Shown here: positions 4,447 to 18,335 of the stretch, in pieces
Position numbering within the stretch: position 1 is the first letter of the stretch
How the letters are laid out: every line of letters starts with the position of its first letter
DNA from: Candidatus Woesearchaeota archaeon
GTDB lineage: Archaea > Nanobdellota > Nanobdellia > Woesearchaeales > J091
NCBI GenBank assembly: GCA_003695045.1
Contig: RFJB01000043.1
Location: 1 to 18,496, forward strand
Reading direction: 5' to 3'
Length of the DNA stretch: 18,496 nucleotides
The notes under the pieces: model-generated
The model's input: only the letters and a program-made list of their open reading frames with translations
What the model was told of the DNA's origin: nothing
The model's database searches: none
Program-made: the position numbers and the translations under genes

Positions 4447-5414
4447 CTTTTTTTGTCTTTTAGAATTTCTTTTTTGTAGAATTCGATAGTCCTCTTGAGG
4501 CCTTCTTTTACCTTAACGACCGGCTCATAGCCGATGAGTTTCTTGGCAAGAGTGATGTCTGCAAGCGAGTGTTTGACATCCCCTGCTCTTTCCGGCCCGA
4601 ATGCCGGCTTTATGCTGGTTCCCAGTTCTCTGTTGAGTTCTCTTACAAGTTCAAGCAGGGTTATTCTTTCTCCGCAGGCAATGTTCACCACTTCTCCTTT
4701 TGTCTTTCTGGCTTTGCATGCCAGAATGTTTGCATTCACAACATTTTCCACATATGTGAAATCCCTGCTTTGCTTTCCATCTCCGTAGATTGTGGGCTTT
4801 TTTCCTCTCAGAAGGGCTTTAATGAACAGAGGGATGACTGCAGAATACTGGCTGTTGGGATCTTGATGCGGTCCGAATATGTTGAAATACCTCAGGGATA
4901 TTGTCTCCAGCCCGTACACTTCGTAAAAAGCCCGCATATAATGTTCTCCTGCAAGCTTGCTGACCGCATAGGGAGACAGCGGTTCCGGCTTCATTCCTTC
5001 GTGTTTCGGAAGTGTGGGGGTGTTTCCGTATGCGGAGCTTGAAGCAGCGTAAACAACTCTTTTAACTCCTGAGTCGCGGGCTGCCAGAAGCACCTTTAAT
5101 GTGCCTTCAACATTCACCCTGTTTGTTTTCTCCGGTTCTTTTACAGAACGCGGCACTGAGCATAGTGCTGCCTGATGAAGGACATAATCCGCCCCTTTAA
5201 ATTCCCGTCTGAGAAGCTTCAGGTTGGTTATGCTTCCCTTCACAATCCGGATCTTGCTTTCTATTCCCTTCAGATTTTCCTTTCTTCCGGTTGAAAAATT
5301 GTCTATTACTGTAACTTTGTTGTCCTTGCAAAGTTCTCTGGCAAGATTGCTGCCAATAAATCCTGCTCCTCCGGTAATGATTATTTTCTTGCCTTTTAGC
5401 GTTGGTTTTCTCAT
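4443..5414 (-). CDS. NAD-dependent nucleotide-sugar epimerase (GalE/Gne-like extended SDR)
   Basis: This 323-residue extended short-chain dehydrogenase/reductase has a Rossmann glycine motif GGAGFIG at residues 15-21 (TGxxGxxG type). ASSSAYG and the catalytic pair Y149/K153 (YAVSK) lie in the middle. RYFNIFGPHQDPNSQYSAVIP and SRDFTYV are substrate-side segments typical of UDP-hexose and UDP-HexNAc 4-epimerases. The most likely reaction is C4 epimerisation of UDP-Glc or UDP-GlcNAc, supplying a sugar for the lipid-linked glycan; a 4,6-dehydratase role is less likely. It overlaps both neighbours through ATGA junctions (4 bp each), so it is firmly inside the operon. An AAGAGG Shine-Dalgarno-like sequence lies in the end of the upstream gene. 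Family certain, exact sugar uncertain. Confidence 0.9.
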   Translation of the reverse strand: MRKPTLKGKKIIITGGAGFIGSNLARELCKDNKVTVIDNFSTGRKENLKGIESKIRIVKGSITNLKLLRREFKGADYVLHQAALCSVPRSVKEPEKTNRVNVEGTLKVLLAARDSGVKRVVYAASSSAYGNTPTLPKHEGMKPEPLSPYAVSKLAGEHYMRAFYEVYGLETISLRYFNIFGPHQDPNSQYSAVIPLFIKALLRGKKPTIYGDGKQSRDFTYVENVVNANILACKARKTKGEVVNIACGERITLLELVRELNRELGTSIKPAFGPERAGDVKHSLADITLAKKLIGYEPVVKVKEGLKRTIEFYKKEILKDKKR

Positions 5415-5767
5415 TTTCTGCCTCTTCTCTTTTTAGGTGCCTGCGCATTTTTTAGTGCGAAGCTTCTTGCAAGCTCTTCAACCTTTCTTTCTGTTCTTTT
5501 GTTGGTAATGTAAAGGTGAAATATTACTAATGCGAAGACGAAGAATCCTCCGATAACAAAGAAGTCGACAGTCCTTTCTATCCTTAAGGTTTCCATGACT
5601 CCGTAAACCGTCTTGGGAAAAAGGACTATGAACAGAAAAGAGAACCAGATGACGTTCCACAGCACAAAATCTCCGGTCAGGTAGTCCCCTCTTTTGAAAT
5701 GCAGGAATGTCAGGTACACCATTACAAGCGCGAAAAGCATCCCCACTATTTGAAGTCCGATTATCAT
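5411..5767 (-). CDS. DUF2304 family membrane protein
   Basis: This small protein of 118 residues has three predicted membrane segments at roughly residues 2-21, 33-51 and 68-87. A lysine/arginine-rich tail follows, ending KKRRGRK. Size, three-span layout and the short charged C-terminus match DUF2304, a family often encoded beside GT2 enzymes of the dolichol-phosphate mannosyltransferase type. Here it starts 9 bp after the GT2 gene and overlaps the epimerase start by 4 bp. No enzymatic motif is visible. A role as a membrane partner or anchor for the adjacent soluble GT2 is a reasonable inference from conserved neighbourhood, but is not demonstrated by this sequence. Confidence 0.8.
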   Translation of the reverse strand: MIIGLQIVGMLFALVMVYLTFLHFKRGDYLTGDFVLWNVIWFSFLFIVLFPKTVYGVMETLRIERTVDFFVIGGFFVFALVIFHLYITNKRTERKVEELARSFALKNAQAPKKRRGRK

Positions 5768-6448: not shown

Positions 6449-9335
6449 CTTCCCGTGCGGTTTGGCTTTCTTCTGCCAGTCCTCTGTTCAGATATTTCTC
6501 CCAGTCAACTTTGTATGCGTAAAGGTCTCCTCCTGTAACCTGTTTTCTGTGGGAGAGCGGAGTGAAGTATTTGAGCCCTTTGCCTTCAAAGAAAAACATG
6601 CGCGTAAACATTGACTTGGCAAGCTTAGGATGCATAAATATCGAGTATGTTCTTCCTTCCTTGCTGAAGAGTGCTGCGCTGTACGGTATTATGGGCTTCT
6701 TGAATGTCTTTTCTCTGAATACTCCTTCCCCGTCCAGATAGACCAATGAAACGGGACTTCCGGTTCCCTGCTGCGTTGATACCTCTGCAGTTCCTTTCTC
6801 GGTATTGACTTTCAGGCCGTTATTGCATATTATCTCCTTGTCCTGTATGTTGCATCTTCCTATCGAGGATGCATAACTCGGCCAGGGGCTCACCCATTTG
6901 TCCGCATCAGTGGTGCTTATTTCATAATAGTACTGTTCTGCCGTGCTGTCGTCAAGGCCGTACTTCTCTTTCAGAATTTTTATTCCTTCTGCAATGCTCT
7001 CATCGTGAACATCATGCCACATTGCTCCTCTTGTGAAGTTCCATATCCCGAAATGCGCCCACACGCCGCTTTTTCCTATCATGTCGTCGCTGGCGATGTA
7101 ATATTGGGGCAACATGTCTGTGCAGTGCGTCAGGTTCAGAACTTTTTCTGCCTGTTCTTCAGTCATTCCGCTTTCAATGTAGCCAATTTTTGCTTCCTCT
7201 CTGCTCTTCTTGAGATTGTCTATTATTGTGTTGTATGCCTTCAACTGGTCGCCAAGGTATTTTTCTGCAAGGTTGGGTCCTGTATCCTGGCCGCAGTTGA
7301 GCATTCTTAAGATGGCTACTGCCTCTTCTTCGTCGTTCTCCAGGAGCGTTTTTCCGACCCAGTGTATTCTTCTTCCCTGGTTTCCGCCGTCAAAAGTCAC
7401 TCTTCTTTCCGCTATCGCTGTGAACCAGTGCCCGAAATCCCACCATGAAGTTATTATCCCGTCTGTGTCGTCTTTTTTTATGTCTTGAAGAAGATTGTAC
7501 CATCCGTCGTTCATTGAGGGGATTTCTGTCTTTGCAGTGTTGTATGCGCCTCTGATTGGATTGACTAGCAGGAACAGTATGAGTGCGCCCATCACAATCT
7601 TCCCGATGCTCTTTTTGAGTTCCAGCGACTTTTCCATCTGGTTTGCTGCTGCGTTGTACATGACTCCCAGGCCGCTTCCAAGGGCAACAGAAAGACCCGG
7701 AACTATGAGTGCCGAGAATCTTATGCCTCTCATTGCAGCATAGAATGTTGCTGCAAACCACACTGCGAGAATGAGCATGTACTTCGCTTCTGTCTTGACA
7801 TTTTCACGGCTCTCTAAAACAAGCACTGCAAACGCAGGCAGCACAGTGAAAGCCAGCAGGAGCATCCAGTGAAGATGGTTTCTCATCCACATAACCAGAA
7901 GAATCCATGCTGCGCTGGCCAGCCCGTACTTGAACACTTTTCCGTGTTCTTTTCCTCTTGCGAAGATTACGACAGCAAGCGATGTTGCTGTAAGCAGGTA
8001 AAAGAGATTCCCGCCCATCTGTTTCATTACCTTGTCTGCGGATGCAAGATTTAACTCTGCCACTGTCGTCAGAACATTGGGCCAGATGTCCTTTACCGCA
8101 ACGGCTTTGTACTGGGTAAAACCAAGGGGTTGTGTTATGAAATGAACCAGATACTGAAGTGAGTATGCGAATGTGTTGCCGCTGTACATTGTTCGGAAAA
8201 GCAGTATGAATATGTTGGTTGCTGCTATGAAAACACCTGTTGCTACGGTTATGCTTTTGAGTGTGCTTCCTTTTTTGAATTCATCTTTTAGTTTCTTCCA
8301 GCTTCTCTTGTTTATAGTAAGTATTATGAGATATCCTATTGCCGCGGCAAGTATGAAGTCATACACGTACCACCATCCGCCCCAGGCCAACTGATATATT
8401 CCCACAAAAAATGCGCTCACACCTGCAAGCAAAGCACTTTTTTTGACGTCCTTCCTGTCTATTGCTTCAACGAACAGCCACGTAATTAACAGCGGCAAAA
8501 ACAGGTTGTAAGAGTCGGTGTCTGAGAATCCCCCTGCTGTTCTCCCGAGCACTGCGGGGTGTATTGCAGTTATCACTGCTGCGACAAACCCGCCGAAGTC
8601 GCCGCCAATCTTTCTTGCGAGGAAAAATGCTGGTATTACTGCAAGTGTGCATACGATTATCGGGAAGTAGAACACGGAGCCCATTACGCTTATTCCCGGC
8701 TTGAATATTGAGATTACCTTGTGAAGCTTGGACATTACCCACGGGTGGAATGTCGGCGGCTGTGCTCTCATGAGCCGGCCGTTTCTGAGTGCGTCGTACA
8801 CCACTCCATCTACTACAACTTCTCCGGGGCGTCCGTACCTGACATAGTTGCGAGCGTGTCTGTAAAATAGGTATGGGTCTATGGCGAGAAGATATGTCTG
8901 TCCGCTCTCATCCTGAAACCTGCTTTTGAATTCCTTTGAGAGATCTTTTGCTTGTTGTTGTATTTCCTGCGCCTGCTGTTGTTTTACTTTGATGAACTCT
9001 GATTCTATCAGCGCGTTCTTGTTTGCGTCCGGCAGATTGGGGTATAACTGGTTTATTTGCTGGCTTATCTGGTTTTTGTAGTACGACTCTACATTTCTTT
9101 GCGCCCAGTCGTCTGTTATGGGAAGGTAGAGCGGCTGCGCCCTGAGGAAGATTGAGAGAAGCATCGGTATGGCGATAAGAATTATGAGCCGGTAGCTCGT
9201 TGCCCTGTTCCATGCCTTTGTGATTGTCTGCCATGCTTTTCCCGCGGTTTCTTTTATTGTTGTTGTTTTGTTCTCTTCTTTTGGTTCTTCTTTCTCGTGT
9301 TCAGTGTGAGAGTGTGTTTTCTTCTTTTTGGCCAT
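6432..9335 (-). CDS. aglB: Archaeal oligosaccharyltransferase AglB (STT3 family)
   Basis: This 967-residue catalytic oligosaccharyltransferase moves the lipid-linked glycan onto Asn of N-X-S/T sequons outside the membrane. A lysine-rich cytoplasmic N-terminus is followed by a first span near 48-64. The first catalytic acidic site is probably D153 (AIDPYLFYRHAR) and the second the DTD at 272-274 (GGFSDTDSYN). TVAE at 424-427 matches the TIxE loop motif. The soluble domain carries WWDFG at 631-635, a variant of WWDYG, and DMIGK at 751-755 in the place of the DK/MI sequon-recognition motif. About 70 Gln- and Lys-rich residues (75-145) sit in the first external loop before D153. This is the first gene of a six-gene operon, with GGGGGT 6 nt before its ATG. 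Function is certain at family level. Confidence 0.97.
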   Translation of the reverse strand: MAKKKKTHSHTEHEKEEPKEENKTTTIKETAGKAWQTITKAWNRATSYRLIILIAIPMLLSIFLRAQPLYLPITDDWAQRNVESYYKNQISQQINQLYPNLPDANKNALIESEFIKVKQQQAQEIQQQAKDLSKEFKSRFQDESGQTYLLAIDPYLFYRHARNYVRYGRPGEVVVDGVVYDALRNGRLMRAQPPTFHPWVMSKLHKVISIFKPGISVMGSVFYFPIIVCTLAVIPAFFLARKIGGDFGGFVAAVITAIHPAVLGRTAGGFSDTDSYNLFLPLLITWLFVEAIDRKDVKKSALLAGVSAFFVGIYQLAWGGWWYVYDFILAAAIGYLIILTINKRSWKKLKDEFKKGSTLKSITVATGVFIAATNIFILLFRTMYSGNTFAYSLQYLVHFITQPLGFTQYKAVAVKDIWPNVLTTVAELNLASADKVMKQMGGNLFYLLTATSLAVVIFARGKEHGKVFKYGLASAAWILLVMWMRNHLHWMLLLAFTVLPAFAVLVLESRENVKTEAKYMLILAVWFAATFYAAMRGIRFSALIVPGLSVALGSGLGVMYNAAANQMEKSLELKKSIGKIVMGALILFLLVNPIRGAYNTAKTEIPSMNDGWYNLLQDIKKDDTDGIITSWWDFGHWFTAIAERRVTFDGGNQGRRIHWVGKTLLENDEEEAVAILRMLNCGQDTGPNLAEKYLGDQLKAYNTIIDNLKKSREEAKIGYIESGMTEEQAEKVLNLTHCTDMLPQYYIASDDMIGKSGVWAHFGIWNFTRGAMWHDVHDESIAEGIKILKEKYGLDDSTAEQYYYEISTTDADKWVSPWPSYASSIGRCNIQDKEIICNNGLKVNTEKGTAEVSTQQGTGSPVSLVYLDGEGVFREKTFKKPIIPYSAALFSKEGRTYSIFMHPKLAKSMFTRMFFFEGKGLKYFTPLSHRKQVTGGDLYAYKVDWEKYLNRGLAEESQTAREDEQKE

Positions 9336-9423
9336 TAGAAAACCCCCTGGATTCGTTATGCTGTTTTGGGTTTTGGTTTGCGAGTTATTCTCTGGACCCC
9401 CTTCTCGGTTGGCGCATGCTCTT

Positions 9424-9435
9424 ATTTAAATATTT
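9424..9435 (-). promoter_or_regulatory. TATA box for the aglB operon
   Basis: Read on the minus strand this is AAATATTTAAAT, an A/T-only archaeal TATA-like element. Transcription would start about 25 nt downstream, near 9403, giving a leader of roughly 70 nt. The leader contains GGGGGT (complement of 9342-9347) with a 6-nt spacer before the aglB ATG at 9335. Confidence 0.6.
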
Positions 9436-9453
9436 GCCTGGCTCATTTATGAC

Positions 9454-9469
9454 ACCACTATCAAGTGGT
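9454..9469. promoter_or_regulatory. Perfect inverted repeat between divergent promoters (candidate operator)
   Basis: ACCACT-ATCA-AGTGGT is a 6-bp perfect inverted repeat with a 4-bp centre. It lies between the minus-strand TATA (9424-9435) and the plus-strand BRE/TATA (9477-9491). Position and symmetry suit a dimeric regulator acting on both divergent units, but no binding protein is known from this window. Confidence 0.4.
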
Positions 9470-9476
9470 TCATCTC

Positions 9477-9491
9477 AGAAAAGTTTATATA
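9477..9491 (+). promoter_or_regulatory. BRE/TATA promoter of the repeat-rich surface protein gene
   Basis: AGAAAAG followed by TTTATATA resembles a strong archaeal BRE plus TATA box. The expected start of transcription is near 9514, leaving a leader of about 58 nt before the ATG at 9572. Confidence 0.65.
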
Positions 9492-9540
9492 GGGGTTTCT
9501 TTTCTCCTGCTTCTCTGAATAATAGACTGAATCAGTTATG

Positions 9541-9557
9541 TTATAACAGAGTTATAA
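9541..9557 (+). promoter_or_regulatory. Leader inverted repeat just upstream of the ribosome binding site
   Basis: TTATAAC-AGA-GTTATAA is a perfect 7-bp inverted repeat with a 3-bp centre. It ends 2 nt before the GGGGGT Shine-Dalgarno element at 9560-9565. It could be a protein-binding site or a weak RNA hairpin modulating access to the ribosome binding site. The stem is A/T-rich, so the RNA structure would be marginal. Confidence 0.35.
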
Positions 9558-9571
9558 TAGGGGGTAGCCAA

Positions 9572-12070
9572 ATGCCAACGATGTCTAACCTGCAATCTTT
9601 TTTTGCCTCGGTCCGTTCATCTCTTAAAACTCTTCTTCTGTTTGTTTTTCTCTTTATTGGAGCTCTCTCGCTTCCGCCTTATGCCAGCGCCAATTCCTCT
9701 TATTACATAGATCTTCTTCCTACAAGGATTGCGCCCTCTTCCGGCACAATAAACCACTGGGAGATGGTTTATGTCTACGCTACCAATGTGGGAAACAAAT
9801 GCACGAATGAGCCGGTCGAAGTTTCTGTTGACATCTTTGACCCTGATGACAATTATGTTTCCACAGAATACATGACTATCACTCCATGGCTCCAGCCGGG
9901 AGACGAAAGAAGCAACTGGGTGCGCTTTTACATTAATAAGTCCGGCTTTTACCGTTTGCATGTCTTCGTAGATTACCCTGATGAGTACGCTGAGCGTGAT
10001 GAAGAGAACAACATTGCCGACTTCTACTTCGAGTCAATAAGCCCCGACCGGGACGGCGACGGCGTGGAAGACATCTATGATGCGTGTCCCAACGAACCGG
10101 GATATGACTGCAACGGTTGTTCAGACCCCTGTATGGGCTGTGCGGTAATGGTTTGTGATGAGGGTGCAGGGACTGTTCCTACCTGCCAGGCGGAAGATTC
10201 CCTCTGCGAAGACACAATATGCCCCTCAGACGGCTGCTACACCACATTCTGCGGTTTGGATGAGAAGGTTGTCTTCGATTCCCCGGCTGTTGAGAACACA
10301 TGTCACCTTACTGCTTACAACCGGGGGGAATGCACTCAGAATGAATGCACCTTCGAATGCGTCTATGATTCCGAATGTGATATTGACGACGATGACGACG
10401 GCGTCAGAGATTCTGATGACATCTGCCCTGACACGCCGAGCGGGGAAGCTGTTGATCAGAACGGTTGCTCATGCTCTCAGAAATCATGCAATGACGGCAA
10501 TGAATGCACCGACGACGGCTGCGACTGGTCTACCGGCTATTGCTGGTCGGTAATTGACAACACGAACGAATGCGGCTCTTTCAGGGACTGCCCTGAAGAC
10601 CACTGCGAAGGAGATTATCTCTACTCTTATTCACCTGACGGCCATGATTACTGTCTTGCAGGAGAATGCGTGGAGTATGCCTGCACAGAGTCAGTAACCT
10701 ACAGTCAGGACTGCGACTATGATGACGACGATGACGGCGACCCTGATGACACTGATTGTGCGCCTCAGGACCCGAACATCCACCACGGAGCTCCTGAAGT
10801 TTGCAACAATTTAGATGACAACTGTGACGGCGTCGTTGACAATATCACCCAATCATGCGGCATTTCCGATGTCGGAGCATGCTCTTTTGGTGTAGAAACC
10901 TGCCTTGAAGGTTCATGGTCTTCCTGCGAAGGCGCGGTCTACCCGTCTGAGGAACTATGCGACGGTATAGACAACGATTGTGACGGCGCTGCCGATGAGG
11001 ATTGCGACTGTGTTGTCGGCGACACGCGTCTCTGCCCTGTTCAGGCCGGTGTCTGTGAAGGTTCTTATGAAACATGCACCGAATCAGGGTGGTCTGGCTG
11101 CGATTATTCATCATTCAGCCCTTACTATGAATCATCAGAGTCCTCCTGTGATTCGCTGGACAACGATTGCGACGGGGTTGTTGACAACATAGTGAGAAAC
11201 TGCTCAGACAACTATCCGGGCATCTGCGGCGTCGGGACAGAGGTCTGCTCTGACGGCTCGTGGTCCGGTTGTCCTGCTCCGCAGGAAGAGACCTGCGATG
11301 GCCTTTATGATGAGGACTGTGATGGTGTTGTTGATGAGGACTGTGAATGTGTTGACGGAGACACACAGGCCTGCGGTTCAGATGTTGGCTTATGCGAGCA
11401 GGGGCTTATGACTTGCATCAACGGGTCGTGGTCTGATTGTGAAGGCGCTGTCTGGCCTGTTCCGGAGGTCTGCGACGGTCTCTATGATGAGGACTGTGAT
11501 GGCGTTGTTGATGAGGGCTGCGATTGTGTAGATGGTGAGACGCAGGTCTGCGGTTCCAATATCGGCGCATGCGAATTCGGCACTCGCACCTGTATAGGTG
11601 GCTCCTGGTCTGATTGCGAGGGAGGCACAGGCCCTGTTGAGGAGGTCTGCAACGGCGTTGATGACGACTGCGATATGCTTGTAGACGAGAATGCTTGCTT
11701 TGTTCCTTCCCGCGAAACTCTCAGAGTAACAGGTCTCCGACTCATGCCTGACGACTGGGTTTCTCCGCCTGATGACCTGTTTGTTCTCGTTTCTGTTGAG
11801 AACGCGGGCTCAAGGACTTTGAGGGACCTGAAGATAACTGTCTATGTTGACGATCTTGGATTAAGGGTCCGCTCGTCAAACTTTGATTTGAAACCTGGCA
11901 GGTCTGCTTCCAAAAGCATCCTGTTGTCAATTCCGGCATACGCTGAAGAAGGGGTTTACGACCTGCGGGTTTCCGTTTCCAATGATGCTGTGAAAAGGGT
12001 TAAATACAGGTCCTTTGTAATCTCCTCTTCTACCGCATATTGCTCGTCTCCATTGTGTGGCTGGTGGTAG
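9572..12070 (+). CDS. Secreted Cys-rich protein with TSP3/MopE-type calcium-binding repeats and CARDB-like domains
   Basis: This is an 832-residue exported protein. ATG 9572 is chosen because GGGGGT lies 6 nt upstream and the protein then begins with a Sec signal peptide (KTLLLFVFLFIGALS, cleavage near YASA). In order: a CARDB-like beta-sandwich (about 40-155); thrombospondin type 3-like acidic motifs near 159 (DRDGDGVEDIYDACP) and 270 (DDDDDGVRDSDDICP); a Cys-rich stretch; then from about 382 to 713 tandem MopE-like metal-binding modules with six DxDCDGxxDE-type loops alternating with CxxGxxTCxxGSWSxCEG motifs; and a C-terminal CARDB-like domain (714-820). No C-terminal membrane span is present, so it is probably secreted or held by other surface proteins. 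It has five N-X-S/T sequons. Many Cys suggest disulfides and the Asp loops suggest Ca2+ binding. Adhesion or surface scaffolding is an inference. Confidence 0.85.
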   Translation: MPTMSNLQSFFASVRSSLKTLLLFVFLFIGALSLPPYASANSSYYIDLLPTRIAPSSGTINHWEMVYVYATNVGNKCTNEPVEVSVDIFDPDDNYVSTEYMTITPWLQPGDERSNWVRFYINKSGFYRLHVFVDYPDEYAERDEENNIADFYFESISPDRDGDGVEDIYDACPNEPGYDCNGCSDPCMGCAVMVCDEGAGTVPTCQAEDSLCEDTICPSDGCYTTFCGLDEKVVFDSPAVENTCHLTAYNRGECTQNECTFECVYDSECDIDDDDDGVRDSDDICPDTPSGEAVDQNGCSCSQKSCNDGNECTDDGCDWSTGYCWSVIDNTNECGSFRDCPEDHCEGDYLYSYSPDGHDYCLAGECVEYACTESVTYSQDCDYDDDDDGDPDDTDCAPQDPNIHHGAPEVCNNLDDNCDGVVDNITQSCGISDVGACSFGVETCLEGSWSSCEGAVYPSEELCDGIDNDCDGAADEDCDCVVGDTRLCPVQAGVCEGSYETCTESGWSGCDYSSFSPYYESSESSCDSLDNDCDGVVDNIVRNCSDNYPGICGVGTEVCSDGSWSGCPAPQEETCDGLYDEDCDGVVDEDCECVDGDTQACGSDVGLCEQGLMTCINGSWSDCEGAVWPVPEVCDGLYDEDCDGVVDEGCDCVDGETQVCGSNIGACEFGTRTCIGGSWSDCEGGTGPVEEVCNGVDDDCDMLVDENACFVPSRETLRVTGLRLMPDDWVSPPDDLFVLVSVENAGSRTLRDLKITVYVDDLGLRVRSSNFDLKPGRSASKSILLSIPAYAEEGVYDLRVSVSNDAVKRVKYRSFVISSSTAYCSSPLCGWW
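11130..11690 (+). repeat. Tandem coding repeats of the MopE-like module
   Basis: Within the 9572-12070 gene, modules carrying a (D/E)DCDGVVDE loop plus a GSWSxCEG segment repeat head to tail. The last two full copies are nearly identical in nucleotide sequence: TATGATGAGGACTGTGATGG begins at 11306 and again at 11483, a period of 177 bp (59 codons). Earlier modules (from about 10800) are more diverged and vary in length. The left boundary is approximate. Confidence 0.75.
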
Positions 12071-12200: not shown

Positions 12201-13499
12201 ATGGTAAGTTCAGTTAGGAGCGTTATTTTGACCGCTTTGTTTTTGGTGGGTCTTCTGAGCATGGCAAGCATTGCTCTTGCAGTGCCGGTTACCATAGACC
12301 AGGTAAAGGTCAACGGCGACGTTGTCAGTCCCGGAGGGACTGAAGTAAGAAGCCTTGACAGAGACAACGAGTTTGATGTCAAAGTTTTTCTGACAGCGCT
12401 GGCAGATGCAGACAATGTCCAGGTAGAAGTTATGATGCGTGGCTATGACCACAATGACCTCATAGAGGACATAAGCGACGTCTTTGATCTGGAAGAAGGA
12501 GTTACCTACGTCAAGACGCTGCACATAACTCTTCCCAAACGAATGGAAGCTCAGGACCAGTACTGGCTGAGAGTTCTGGTGACTGACAGGAATTCCGACC
12601 TTGTTCAGGAGAACTACGTTATCTATGTCAATACTGACAGGCATGACGTTGAAATCAGGGATGTCATCTTCAGCCCTGAGAATGAAGTCAAGGCAGGAAG
12701 GGCGCTTCTCGCAACAGTCAGGATAAAGAATTACGGAAAGACAGACGAAGAGAACATAAAAGTCTCCGTCAGCATTCCGGACCTCGGAGTTTCCGCATCC
12801 GACTACATAGACGAGCTTGACGCCGGAGATTCAATATCTTCAGAGGAACTCTATCTGAGAATTCCCATGTGCGTCGAGACAGGCACTTATGACGTAAAGG
12901 TCGAAGCAGAGTATGACGACGGAGACGAGGTCACAACAAAGACAGAATCAATAAGAGTGGTTCAGGACGAAACCTGCGGCGCGAAGGAAGAAAAGCCGTC
13001 AGAGCAGACGGAAAAGACCTTTATCACAGCGCCCGGTTCGCAGGACGTTGTCAAGGGAACAACCGGAGCAGTTTATCCTGTGCTCATTACCAACGCAGGG
13101 TCCCAGGCGAAGACCTACGCTCTTTCAGTTAGCGGAGTTGAAAGCTGGGGTGCATACAGGATTGAGCCCTCTGCAGTCCTCGTTGTTCCTGCAGGAAAGA
13201 CAGAAACCGCTTACGTCTATGTCACTGCCAACGAGGATGCTCCGGAAGGCGAAGCAGCATTCTTCGTCGAGGTTTCTTCAGGAAGCGACAAGAAGATGCT
13301 TCCTCTGACAGCCAATGTTGTCAAGGGAGAAGAAACTGAAGCAGGAGCTTCCAGCTGGGACAAGGTCAAAAGAGGACTCGAGGTCGGTCTTGTTGTGCTG
13401 GTCGTCCTCCTTGTAATCCTCGGCCTCATCATCGGCTTCAACAAGCTGAAAGGCGATGAGGGTTCTGGAGAGGAAGACATGTCCCAGACCTACTATTAA
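12201..13499 (+). CDS. Putative S-layer-like surface protein, single-pass C-terminal anchor
   Basis: This 432-residue exported protein has a signal peptide (about 1-27, ending SIALA). Three beta-sandwich domains follow: residues about 28-147, 148-253 and 271-385. The second (DVEIRDVIFSP...) is CARDB-like; the third (ending in EAAFFVEVSS and LPLTANVV) resembles NEW3-type domains. One span lies at about 393-415 and a short acidic tail ends MSQTYY. The layout matches proteins annotated as putative S-layer proteins in small archaeal genomes. A strong BRE/TATA and GGGGGT leader suggest abundance, and a hairpin with a T-rich tail follows the gene. Notably it has no N-X-S/T sequon at all, although AglB is encoded nearby. 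Domain 2 is related to the C-terminal domain of the preceding gene's product. S-layer function is inferred. Confidence 0.82.
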   Translation: MVSSVRSVILTALFLVGLLSMASIALAVPVTIDQVKVNGDVVSPGGTEVRSLDRDNEFDVKVFLTALADADNVQVEVMMRGYDHNDLIEDISDVFDLEEGVTYVKTLHITLPKRMEAQDQYWLRVLVTDRNSDLVQENYVIYVNTDRHDVEIRDVIFSPENEVKAGRALLATVRIKNYGKTDEENIKVSVSIPDLGVSASDYIDELDAGDSISSEELYLRIPMCVETGTYDVKVEAEYDDGDEVTTKTESIRVVQDETCGAKEEKPSEQTEKTFITAPGSQDVVKGTTGAVYPVLITNAGSQAKTYALSVSGVESWGAYRIEPSAVLVVPAGKTETAYVYVTANEDAPEGEAAFFVEVSSGSDKKMLPLTANVVKGEETEAGASSWDKVKRGLEVGLVVLVVLLVILGLIIGFNKLKGDEGSGEEDMSQTYY

Positions 13500-13575: not shown

Positions 13576-16098
13576 ATGAAGCGTAATGCCGTAGTGTTAT
13601 CAATTGTTATCCTGTTTCTTCTCTCTCTTTCATCAGTCCATGCTGTGGAGATAGTCCCCCAGAACGCGTGCTCCTGCGGCCTCACAACAGAATCCGTCAG
13701 AGTCGTCAATCAGGACTCTGAAAAGCACTCCTTTACAGTTTCCGTTGAAGGCGAAATATCGCCCTTTTCGGTTGTTTATCCCCCTTCATTCACGCTTCCC
13801 GGTGACGGTTACATAGATGTTACTGTGGACGTTCACTTTCCCTGCATGAAGGACAAGCCATACACCGGCTTCATTGTTGTAGAGTCCGATGACGGCTCGG
13901 TTAATAAGTTTCCAAGGGCATACTTTACGAGGGAATGCCCAAACATTCAATTGAGATCCGCTTCTGCCCTGAAGGAAGCTTCTCCCTGCGAGCCGGTCAC
14001 ATTCAGGTTCGACATCACTAACGCGGCGCCTTTCAAGGACTACTTCTCCTTCAAGGTTCTTCCCGAAGATTACTCTGATTTCGTTTCTTTGAACTCGCAG
14101 AAGGTTGCCCTTCAGCCGCGCCAGACGCACACACTCTTTGTCACCACGAGTTTTCCATGCGATGTCAGCGGCAAAAAAGACTTCACACTCATTACCGAGA
14201 CCGAAAAGTCAAACCTCAGGGCAACAACTCCTTTTTCTCTTGATATAAAACCTGATTACAAATTCGACCTGTCTGTTGAGGACAAATCCCTTTCTGTTTG
14301 CGAGCAGACCCGGAAAAAGCTCTCGGTTTCTGTTGCAAACCAAAACGATTTCAGCCAGAACTTCCACCTTTTCCTTGAGGATTCTCCATCTTGGGTTTCT
14401 TTGTCTGCATCCTCTCTGTCAGTTAATTCGTCAGAAACGGGGGTTTCTGAACTCACGATACAGCCGCCTGACGGGGCAGCGGGCTCATACGAGTTTTCCG
14501 TTAAGGCAGTTTCAGAGTATGGCAACATCTCAGAGTCAGTCCCTGTCAGAGTATCTGTAAGCAATTGTTATGACTTCACTCTTAATTTTGATTTTCCCGA
14601 AAGAGTTTGTTGTGATGCCGCTGAATTGCCTTTGGTTCTTTACAACAACGGCACCGAAAGTGGCAGGTTCAACGTTTCCGTTGTGTCTCCCGAGGGGCTT
14701 TCGCTTTCCTCAGATGCTGTCTTTGTTGCTTCAGGCGAGGCAAAGTCGTTTGCCCTTGATCTTGACAGCTGCCCTTCATCGGCAGATGAAGTGGTTATTT
14801 CCGTTGCTCCTCTGGACGCGCCCGAACTTTCAAAGACCTTTTCAAGGAAAGCATCCTTCATCAAAGAAGATTCCTGCTCTGAGATTGCGCTTCTTAAGGA
14901 CGACTTTACTATTTCGTATTCCAACTATTCCCTTAAGCTTCCCGTCAGGAATATTGGCGCGAAGCCGACCTACTATTATTTCTCTCTTGTTTCCGGAAGC
15001 TGGGAGCATCTCGAAACCTTTGACTTTGTGCTGAAGCCGGGCGAAGAAGCGTCGGTAAAGCTTTATCTTGAACCGGAAGGAATCCCTGAAGACAAGTATG
15101 CCTTGGAGCTTGTCGCGACAACCGCCTCCGGTCAGGAATTTAGATTGCCTTTCTTCATAACCCTTGAGAAGGAATTTGACTTGTATGAATTCCTCGGCTC
15201 AGTTTACATGTCGGCTGTGCAGAATCCGTGTTCCTTCTCCTACAAGGTTCTGCTGTTCGTTTTTGTAGTTTCCCTTGTGCTGTCCGTTGCATTTTCTCTG
15301 TTCAGGTCAAGATGCAAGAGGATAAAGCCGAGGCGCCGCCTGACAAAGCTTCTCAGGTTCTTTGCCTATCTCTCCTTTGTAGCTGTTCTTGCTGTAGGGA
15401 TTACTTTCCTCTTCTGCAATTACGGCCTTTCTTCAATCACAACTTATGTTCCCTCAAACATATCTGCTCCTCCAGCATCTCCCGGACAGTCCATGCCTTC
15501 TGAGGTTAATCAGACGGCAAACGTGACTGTGAACGAGTCAGAAGGAGCTCAGGAAGAATTCCAGGGTTTTGTTCTTGAGATCCCTCCCGAAGGAACCTTC
15601 GAGTGGGATCTTTCAGAGGTCTTCAGGGATCCCGATGCTGATGTGTTGTACTACACTGTCATAAGTCCTCCGTCCCTTGAAGTGGAAGTGAACAATGAGA
15701 AGGGGGTTGCTCTTATAACTCCGCTGGAGGGCTTCAAAGAAGGGTCTCTGCTGAGCGTCATAGTCAGCGACGGCGAATACACCGTCTCAAGCCCGCCGAT
15801 AAAGGTGGTTTTCAGTTCTCCTGAAGACAAGGAAACCGTGTCCGCCAACTCCAGGAAGAACGAGGAGGGCGCCTCCTCTCTCGGAAAGTACATTTTCATA
15901 GCACTTCTGCTGGTGCTTTTGATTTTGTTCTTCAGGGTTCTTCTTTCCCGCAGGGAGCAGAAGCACGAGGAGCCCGCGTTAGTTAAGAAGCCCTCTGTTT
16001 CCCAGCTTAGAGGTCCTGAGCCGCCAAAAAGAAAGCGTGGCAGACCCAAGGGCTCCAAGAACAAGAAGAAGCGCGGAAGGCCTAAGAAAAACGAGTGA
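13576..16098 (+). CDS. Envelope-spanning beta-sandwich protein with cytoplasmic AT-hook tail
   Basis: This 840-residue protein is not assignable to a named family as a whole. The start at 13576 gives a signal peptide (MKRNAVVLSIVILFLL...SSVHA) with GGGGGA 5 nt upstream; an in-frame extension to 13456 lies inside the previous gene and is not favoured. Residues about 25-550 are tandem Ig/NEW3-like sandwiches with scattered Cys. Two spans at about 557-578 and 595-615 flank a basic cytoplasmic loop (RCKRIKPRRR). An external segment with four clustered sequons (NISA, NQTA, NVTV, NESE) leads to a cadherin/dystroglycan-type domain (about 675-760, FRDPDADVLYYT). A third span lies at about 772-792. 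The inner tail ends with two AT-hook cores RGRP at 821-824 and 833-836. It has nine sequons in all. The topology is self-consistent. A chromosome-to-envelope tether is hypothetical. Confidence 0.8.
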   Translation: MKRNAVVLSIVILFLLSLSSVHAVEIVPQNACSCGLTTESVRVVNQDSEKHSFTVSVEGEISPFSVVYPPSFTLPGDGYIDVTVDVHFPCMKDKPYTGFIVVESDDGSVNKFPRAYFTRECPNIQLRSASALKEASPCEPVTFRFDITNAAPFKDYFSFKVLPEDYSDFVSLNSQKVALQPRQTHTLFVTTSFPCDVSGKKDFTLITETEKSNLRATTPFSLDIKPDYKFDLSVEDKSLSVCEQTRKKLSVSVANQNDFSQNFHLFLEDSPSWVSLSASSLSVNSSETGVSELTIQPPDGAAGSYEFSVKAVSEYGNISESVPVRVSVSNCYDFTLNFDFPERVCCDAAELPLVLYNNGTESGRFNVSVVSPEGLSLSSDAVFVASGEAKSFALDLDSCPSSADEVVISVAPLDAPELSKTFSRKASFIKEDSCSEIALLKDDFTISYSNYSLKLPVRNIGAKPTYYYFSLVSGSWEHLETFDFVLKPGEEASVKLYLEPEGIPEDKYALELVATTASGQEFRLPFFITLEKEFDLYEFLGSVYMSAVQNPCSFSYKVLLFVFVVSLVLSVAFSLFRSRCKRIKPRRRLTKLLRFFAYLSFVAVLAVGITFLFCNYGLSSITTYVPSNISAPPASPGQSMPSEVNQTANVTVNESEGAQEEFQGFVLEIPPEGTFEWDLSEVFRDPDADVLYYTVISPPSLEVEVNNEKGVALITPLEGFKEGSLLSVIVSDGEYTVSSPPIKVVFSSPEDKETVSANSRKNEEGASSLGKYIFIALLLVLLILFFRVLLSRREQKHEEPALVKKPSVSQLRGPEPPKRKRGRPKGSKNKKKRGRPKKNE

Positions 16099-16121: not shown

Positions 16122-16211
16122 CGAGCCTGGGGGGATTCGAACCCCCGACCTACTGCTTTCCTCTTTGTGAATTAGGAGGCAGTCGCGCTATCCAGACTGC
16201 GCCACAGGCTC
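16122..16211 (-). tRNA. tRNA-Arg (anticodon CCU) with a 15-nt intron
   Basis: Reading down from 16211: acceptor GAGCCTG pairs with CAGGCTC (16123-16129), discriminator G at 16122, and no CCA is encoded. The D stem is GCGC/GCGC around AGTCTGGATA, and the T arm is GGGGG-TTCGAAT-CCCCC. The anticodon stem ACTGC/GCAGT encloses 22 nt, so an intron is required. The loop reads C-T-CCT-A-A after removing 15 nt at 16158-16172, the standard 37/38 site. AGGA in the intron (16159-16162) can pair with TCCT spanning the anticodon, as in precursor tRNAs cut by the archaeal splicing endonuclease. Mature length is 75 nt. It would read AGG codons. Confidence 0.93.
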
Positions 16212-17669: not shown

Positions 17670-18335
17670 ATGCGAAGAATAATGATGCCTCCTCCCCCTC
17701 CGGCTGTGATGTTCCGGAGAACCGTGCAAAAAGAAGAAGCTCCCGATGAGTTGCTTCTGCAAGATGTTGAGAGCCATCTCGACAGGTCTGTTCAATCCGC
17801 CATCAGGCGGGAAAAGCTCCTTATGATTTCCCAGGACTTGAGAGCGAGCATAGCCCTGACAGAGATGAAGCAGGAAAGGTTCCGCCTGATGGATGAGGCG
17901 TCAAAGACGAGACAGAAGGACAGCCCAGCGCATTATAAAACCCTTCTGAATGAAATCTTCTCGATACTCGACATCCTTGAGGCTCTTTCAATGCCTCCTC
18001 CCAAAAAAGATTCGGACCCTGCTCAGCCCACCATCGCCTCGCTTGGCGGATCCCGCTTCCATTGCCCTGACTGCGTTGTTGTAGAGCGCATTCCCAAAGA
18101 AAAAAGAATGTCCTTCTCTACCGAAAAAGAAGCCGTAGAAGCAGGATATTCCCCGTGCAGCGTCTGCTTCCCGTCCAGCAGCTCTCTTGTCGGCAGCAGG
18201 GACCACGCAAAAATTCACAGGGATTCCTGCATTGCAGTGAAGCACATCAACAACGAGAACCTGCTTTCATTCTCCAATGAGAAGGAAGCGTTTGACCTGG
18301 GATTCTCCCCGTGCAAACTCTGCATGCACGAGTAA
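17670..18335 (+). CDS. Protein with two tandem Ada-type zinc-binding modules
   Basis: This is a 221-residue protein. GGTGG lies 4 nt before the ATG. A Pro-rich N-terminus (MPPPPPAVM) is followed by a predicted helical, possibly coiled-coil region at about 25-110, a Pro-rich linker, and two copies of a module resembling the zinc-binding domain of Ada. Copy 1 has H131/C132, C135 and C163-x2-C166 within YSPCSVC. Copy 2 has H183, C187 and C215-x2-C218 within FSPCKLC. Between the ligand pairs both share a '(M/L)SFS-EKEA--G(Y/F)SPC' core, as in Ada-like modules appended to nucleases and repair proteins. No methyltransferase or nuclease domain is present. Zinc binding is well supported by ligand spacing; DNA binding or damage sensing is inference. 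It is cotranscribed with the 95-aa gene. Confidence 0.78.
   Translation: MRRIMMPPPPPAVMFRRTVQKEEAPDELLLQDVESHLDRSVQSAIRREKLLMISQDLRASIALTEMKQERFRLMDEASKTRQKDSPAHYKTLLNEIFSILDILEALSMPPPKKDSDPAQPTIASLGGSRFHCPDCVVVERIPKEKRMSFSTEKEAVEAGYSPCSVCFPSSSSLVGSRDHAKIHRDSCIAVKHINNENLLSFSNEKEAFDLGFSPCKLCMHE

Follow-up and report, generated by a model that had tools for sequence, protein, structure and literature searches.

A possible chromosome-to-surface tether: two AT-hooks on the predicted cytoplasmic tail of a Woesearchaeota envelope protein

Introduction

How archaeal chromosomes are attached and segregated relative to the cell envelope is largely open. A gene on an 18,496-nucleotide stretch of a Candidatus Woesearchaeota genome (the whole stretch analyzed, called the window here) raises the question of whether a surface protein could hold DNA directly, as a first-pass annotation had read its product as an exported protein whose inner tail carries two AT-hooks and may anchor the nucleoid to the envelope or S-layer. 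We consider here what kind of protein this is, how good the hooks are, whether they belong to its family, and what else a strongly basic tail could do.

Gene and protein architecture

An ORF scan of the window gave the gene an ATG at 13576 and a stop codon ending at 16098 (840 amino acids); the frame is open already from an ATG at 13456, and the signal-peptide-like start is the one at 13576. Besides the hydrophobic N-terminal stretch, hydropathy detected three spans, which coincide with helices at residues 551-579, 588-618, and 767-791 of an AlphaFold2 model built on a 25-sequence alignment (mean pLDDT 78); the pTM of this model is 0.45, so the arrangement of its domains is unreliable. The coordinates and three-span plan of the first-pass annotation therefore stand. 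All features are collected in Table 1.

Table 1. Positions of the features discussed, in window coordinates.
Feature	Position	Strand	Basis
Secreted-type protein preceding the pair, with CARDB and four Cu-binding_MopE repeats	9224-12070	+	Profiles
Partner: NEW3/CARDB/FixG_C single-span protein, putative S-layer type, ends QTYY	12201..13499	+	Profiles, family
Envelope protein, Ig-rich, multi-span, 840 aa, AT-hook tail	13576..16098	+	ORF, family, model
Signal-peptide-like N-terminus, aa 1-23	13576..13644	+	Hydropathy; model helix 3-18
Ig-like beta-sandwich string, aa 29-531, about five domains, 5 sequons	13660..15168	+	Model; FixG_C over cut-off
Span 1, aa 551-579	15226..15312	+	Hydropathy, AlphaFold2 helix
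Basic loop CKRIKPRR, aa 580-587, predicted cytoplasmic	15313..15336	+	Residue charge count
Span 2, aa 588-618	15337..15429	+	Hydropathy, AlphaFold2 helix
Big_9/cadherin-like domain, aa 665-746; preceding linker with 4 sequons	15568..15813	+	Sub-threshold profile, family, model
Span 3, aa 767-791	15874..15948	+	Hydropathy, AlphaFold2 helix
Predicted cytoplasmic tail, aa 792-840, net +15, mostly pLDDT <50	15949..16095	+	Model, charge count
AT-hook 1, KRKRGRPKGSKNKKK, aa 818-832	16027..16071	+	PF02178; HMG-I/Y 2ezd_A match
AT-hook 2, KKRGRPKKNE, aa 831-840	16066..16095	+	PF02178
tRNA gene just after the envelope gene, 90 bases	16122-16211	-	Rfam, 58 bits
Two-domain Ada-like Zn-binding protein; membership of the same system putative	17670..18335	+	Ada_Zn_binding, 31.9 bits (cut-off 23)

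Counting spans from the exported N-terminus puts the short loop and the tail on the inside, and the positive-inside rule agrees with this prediction: the loop has five Lys/Arg and no acidic residue, the 49-residue tail has 20 Lys/Arg and 5 Asp/Glu, and both parts of the ectodomain are net negative. The inward orientation proposed earlier for loop and tail thus holds as a prediction on which hydropathy, model helices, and charge pattern agree, and the tail is also predicted to be disordered. The nine N-X-S/T sequons all lie in regions predicted to be outside, as had been claimed; since these regions account for most of the sequence, this supports the topology weakly.

The cadherin-like domain of the first-pass annotation fared less evenly, as relatives carry it (Big_9 matches in 14/25 aligned family members and Cadherin_5 in 8/25, at E ≤ 0.01) but Big_9 is sub-threshold in the protein itself (20.7 bits against a cut-off of 23.6). 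A fold search with the model returned generic Ig-string proteins only (axoneme central apparatus, complement, desmosomal cadherins), with an S-layer protein at rank 41 and low whole-chain TM-scores throughout, and the sole matches of the protein's profile among PDB sequences were HYDIN chains. We regard these matches as uninformative about function.

A divergent member of an envelope family

The searches turned up no close relative in which the hooks could be followed. A single-sequence search, in which the 7,993 candidates sharing most words were scored, gave the protein itself and one distant protein; a profile search over 7,990 candidates chosen in the same way gave 10 rows including the query; and residues 620-840 gave, besides the query, two repetitive AT-hook proteins that match weakly (E 0.14 and 0.23). 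Across the order, matches were found in 42 of 59 other genomes (43/60 with its own), all 59 coming from other families of the order than its own. Forty of the 42 were examined, and a family ORF was present at the threshold used in 39, the exception being L059. A further scan with the neighboring partner gene supplied the best 80 of 112 loci, and as these are titled mostly Candidatus Woesearchaeota or Nanoarchaeota, we speak of a Woesearchaeota family. Pooling gave 80 complete members, 70 of them distinct.

Identity to the relatives is 17-23% in two alignments, the best-scoring relative being L032 in the comparison of fetched loci and G058 in the genome scan, and no curated whole-protein model passed for the family. 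Its members share a common plan, with a signal peptide, a string of Ig domains with conserved Cys and Asn positions, spans, a Big_9-like domain, and a basic tail. Judged by sequence, the protein is a divergent member of this Woesearchaeota envelope family.

The partner gene and its surroundings

The partner lies upstream, its stop codon separated by 76 bases from the start of the envelope gene, and its single span lies near the end of the protein. A putative S-layer type for this neighbor agrees with its NEW3/CARDB/FixG_C profiles and with a match to NCBIfam NF033506 (PACE-CTERM putative S-layer protein), on which the partner scores 98.1 bits and the envelope protein 33.4, both below the curated 110. 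PACE-CTERM is named in no paper of the open-access literature searched. A partner match is present in 111 of the 119 genomes of a phylum sample that includes its own, and the last span and tail of the partner are strongly conserved. In the best 80 of 112 loci (L111-L190), found by a juxtamembrane pattern that did not include the terminal residues, all 80 partner-type proteins end in Tyr-Tyr, on a predicted cytoplasmic tail of the (Q/E/K)(T/S)YY type, as does 1 of the 551 remaining complete, non-overlapping frames of these loci. At class level (L224-L237), the two tyrosines stand near the end in 14/14 and exactly at the end in 12/14, the other two having a short extension; a family member follows just downstream in 3/14. 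So invariant an end on a near-universal coat-type protein suggests a free terminus that is recognized by some binding partner.

A family gene comes directly after a partner-type gene in 31/39 loci of the first set and in 46 of the best 80 of 112 loci. The other 34 have no family member directly downstream; in some the contig or stretch stops at that point, and many carry instead what we take to be an FAD-oxidoreductase-like gene. Further upstream, several relatives have repeats or domains related to those of the protein at 9224-12070, which is a possible third coat component. The tRNA gene was found by Rfam and missed by ARAGORN (bacterial mode, which reported no tRNA), and with its 90 bases it may hold an intron. 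As the genome encodes a histone, any chromatin met by the tail would be histone-bearing.

Two AT-hooks at the C-terminus

The protein ends in KRKRGRPKGSKNKKKRGRPKKNE, with RGRP cores at residues 821-824 and 833-836. These cores, noted from the start as AT-hooks, pass the curated cut-off of Pfam AT_hook (PF02178) in two stretches, with 21.4 bits against 17.4. Compared with PDB sequences, the tail has a sole match at E ≤ 10, the HMG-I/HMG-Y chain 2ezd_A, whose KRPRGRPKGSKNKGA aligns with KRKRGRPKGSKNKKK at 12 of 15 identical residues, including RGRPKGSKNK (E 0.1 with a 23-residue query). We take this chain to be the second DNA-binding domain of HMG-I/Y, solved with DNA.

Shuffling the 49-residue tail 200,000 times gave at least one RGRP in 1.4% and two in 0.0055% of shuffles, the latter amounting to a few per thousand over some 70 family members, and a chance product of basic composition is thus unlikely. 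In all four codons the two units have a different third base, and yet the encoded residues are the same, a pattern that fits an old duplication under constraint or an independent origin; the residue two before the core is Arg in one hook and Lys in the other. At the level of bare DNA, a pattern for RGRP-K/R occurs at 7 places in the genome, of which this tail supplies two, and the reversed control occurs at 22. The pattern thus shows no enrichment, and the case for the hooks rests on the profile match and on their pairing. Neither hook has the proline that precedes RGR in the HMG-I consensus. According to passages of a MeCP2 study (PMC5028900), prolines on both sides of RGR are suggested to help, and the first MeCP2 hook, which also lacks the preceding proline, binds more weakly than the HMG-I consensus. 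A review (PMC11354804) states that adjacent polar or basic residues raise the affinity of the second HMGA1 hook.

AT-hooks in other proteins

The PF02178 cut-off is exceeded in 7/287 genomes of the order and 6/378 of the class, two overlapping samples that both include its own genome. By hydropathy, none of the 11 other proteins over the cut-off has a span (the frame at L083 is cut by the locus end), and the present protein is the only membrane protein in the order and class samples with an over-cut-off hook. Among the 11, we take two to be endonuclease-Q-like, several to be of winged-helix type, and one to be nucleotidyltransferase-like; several of these spanless proteins are thus presumably DNA enzymes or regulators. 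Its own genome (1.06 Mb, 84% complete) has one other frame that passes, a 125-residue protein on a different contig that is presumably a PadR-like regulator. No AT_hook over the cut-off was found in 14 control genomes, with sub-threshold matches in 7. A very long surface-type frame at L101, with RGRPPK after its last span, is sub-threshold at 12.6 bits.

Three further observations concern other proteins. A 159-residue frame at L081 (G020) has a winged-helix-type-looking domain and, behind it, tandem repeats that hold three RGRP hooks; it may represent an HMGA-like chromatin protein of the order. In the PHP-domain proteins at L082 (G151) and L086 (G122), the C-terminus consists of an AT-hook and then a QKGLxDF stretch; we take them to be endonuclease-Q-like, and the stretch presumably resembles a PCNA-binding motif. 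Within the window, a DUF2304 membrane protein (5411-5767, minus strand) in a glycosylation-type cluster ends in a basic, hook-like KKRRGRK that is sub-threshold.

Tails of the relatives

The tails of the family are mostly basic but varied in sequence. Sixty-one of the 70 distinct members have a net positive tail and 42 reach +4 or more, counts that include a few members in which the last span is missed by the hydropathy cut-off or absent (L050, L145, L157). In the first set, the median net charge is +5.5 in 36 family tails (39 ORFs less two that are truncated and one in which a single span was detected) against -2 in 31 adjacent partner tails. In the named set, it is +5 in 41 family tails against +1 in 74 tails of other membrane proteins from the same loci (p 2.7e-6, a generous value because relatives are non-independent samples) and -3 in 80 partner-type tails.

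The hooks behave differently. A single RGRP occurs in one of the other 70 distinct complete members (L037) and two in none, so the AT-hook as a family trait is rejected, and the expectation that RGRP tails would accompany this ectodomain is not borne out. Relatives that lack RGRP and end in varied basic residues are what the first-pass annotation had named as telling against it; they do so for a conserved system, and a function specific to this lineage is unaffected. On sequence evidence, the basic tail is a property of the family, and the AT-hooks are not, being peculiar to the lineage of this protein.

The main rival to DNA binding follows from these charges, and we give it a substantial minority chance. 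The tail would be a generic electrostatic element that sets the topology and binds either membrane lipids or the acidic QTYY end of the partner; the RGRP units would be incidental, and DNA would not be the target. The generality of basic tails and the acidity of the partner tails agree with it, as do the adjacency of the two genes and a negative partner tail opposite a positive family tail in 34 of 42 pairs. Against it, the charges of the two tails are uncorrelated across the 42 pairs (Spearman 0.10, p 0.53), so that correlated charges are ruled out as proof of docking, and charge alone leaves two canonical hooks and the HMG-I/Y match unexplained.

A few relatives have other ends. In two of them, L037 (6286-8967, minus strand; phmmer E 2.7e-5) and L051 (5228-8122, minus strand; E 5.4e-9), the inner tail bears a domain akin to the Ada-like protein of the window; the scan covered 134 loci, and its third, weak match was a separate small frame. 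With Ada_Zn_binding, L051 scores 14.8 bits, below the cut-off of 23, and L037 has no match, its Ada ligand cysteines looking lost; L037 is also the member in which RGRP and an Ada-like domain share one tail. S/T-P-basic-basic motifs, which bind the minor groove, were seen in two of 68 family tails (L032 and L051). Such tails hint at nucleic-acid-type ends and are suggestive only.

The Ada-like tails, and the union of an ectodomain with a DNA-binding-type tail in one protein, would also suit a membrane-bound regulator that senses the outside and, through its AT-hook tail, changes how nearby or A/T-rich promoters are transcribed. Neither profiles nor the model place a folded, sequence-specific DNA-binding or transduction domain between span 3 and the end of the tail, and AT-hooks alone have low sequence specificity; we find this the least probable of the readings weighed.

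A membrane-localized role in binding RNA or ribosomes, for instance during insertion of coat proteins, has a slim chance in our estimate. Disordered basic tails suit RNA. Hook 1 of the protein resembles the HMG-I/Y chain with KGSKNK, which is presumably the second hook. Excerpts from PMC11354804 report that AT-hooks can bind RNA and that an extended AT-hook prefers it over DNA; in the same excerpts, RNA binding by HMGA1 is shown for the first hook only, not for the second or third.

Discussion

We consider the best explanation, at a probability of about 0.45, to be that an inner tail whose basic character is ancestral acquired, in this lineage, a pair of AT-hooks through which it contacts A/T-rich DNA at the membrane. 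The protein is the lineage's version of a conserved envelope protein, with Ig domains, two spans, a Big_9-like domain, a last span, and a basic tail, probably co-transcribed with its partner. Its end carries a pair of canonical AT-hooks, predicted to be disordered and to face the cytoplasm, and the near identity to HMG-I/Y suggests that RGR would most likely insert into the minor groove of A/T-rich DNA, by which the envelope complex might keep adjacent parts of the chromosome close to the membrane. Such an attachment is as conditional as the binding of A/T-rich DNA. The simplest account would be a local gain of AT-hooks on a family tail whose common property is positive charge.

In favor of this explanation we count the PF02178 score, the HMG-I/Y match, the shuffles, the codons, the spanless AT-hook proteins, the charge of the tail with its predicted disorder and inward orientation, the reported effect of polar or basic neighbors on the second HMGA1 hook, and the Ada-like tails. 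Against it we count a double hook in one genome, basic tails in relatives that need no DNA, the E value of 0.1, and the missing proline before RGR. The 59 compared genomes, on which a view of hook conservation would depend, all belong to other families.

A dedicated chromosome-to-surface tether is a possible function of such a protein. A wider reading, which we think unlikely, would have the AT-hooks hold A/T-rich DNA, the spans and basic loop pair with the QTYY partner, and the outer Ig and cadherin-like domains become part of the coat, the tail serving across Woesearchaeota as a swappable socket for nucleic-acid-binding ends (AT-hooks in this protein, Ada-like domains in two relatives, H1-like or TPRK-type basic tails in others). 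If the AT-hook explanation is true, an HMG-type tail on the partner of a surface coat would allow a single peptide to test whether an archaeon with a small genome attaches its nucleoid directly to the envelope. Even with an electrostatic tail, a conserved two-gene Woesearchaeota envelope unit is outlined, whose first product ends in an invariant, predicted-cytoplasmic Tyr-Tyr.

Among the top matches of the open-access literature on AT-hooks, archaea, nucleoid anchors, and DPANN, we found no archaeal AT-hook membrane tether, and no paper there pairs AT-hooks with Nanoarchaeota, in line with the earlier remark that no such archaeal system was recognized. The closest motif is that of HMGA1/HMG-I(Y), with RGRP cores in a basic context and the match at hook 1 described above. 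HMGA proteins have three AT-hooks, as stated in part of PMC11354804, and are small and soluble nuclear proteins, whereas this is an 840-residue, three-span envelope protein with two hooks and thus falls outside that family; the likeness seen is one of the motif. In role, ELYS/MEL-28, described in passages of PMC4920428 and PMC7764596 as an AT-hook nucleoporin that links chromatin to the nuclear envelope, is similar, being a eukaryotic nucleoporin with a likeness of role only. RocS of Streptococcus pneumoniae, membrane-bound and linking chromosomal DNA to the membrane according to an excerpt of PMC13042908, is bacterial, has a membrane-targeting sequence, and lacks a surface ectodomain; here too the likeness is of role only. 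The motif and predicted topology of the archaeal protein fit a RocS-type role with a DNA-binding part on the cytoplasmic side, both binding and sidedness being predictions. AT-hooks and membrane-linked DNA-binding proteins are thus each known, and their combination on the partner of an archaeal S-layer-type protein, seen in one genome, would be a new variation on both.
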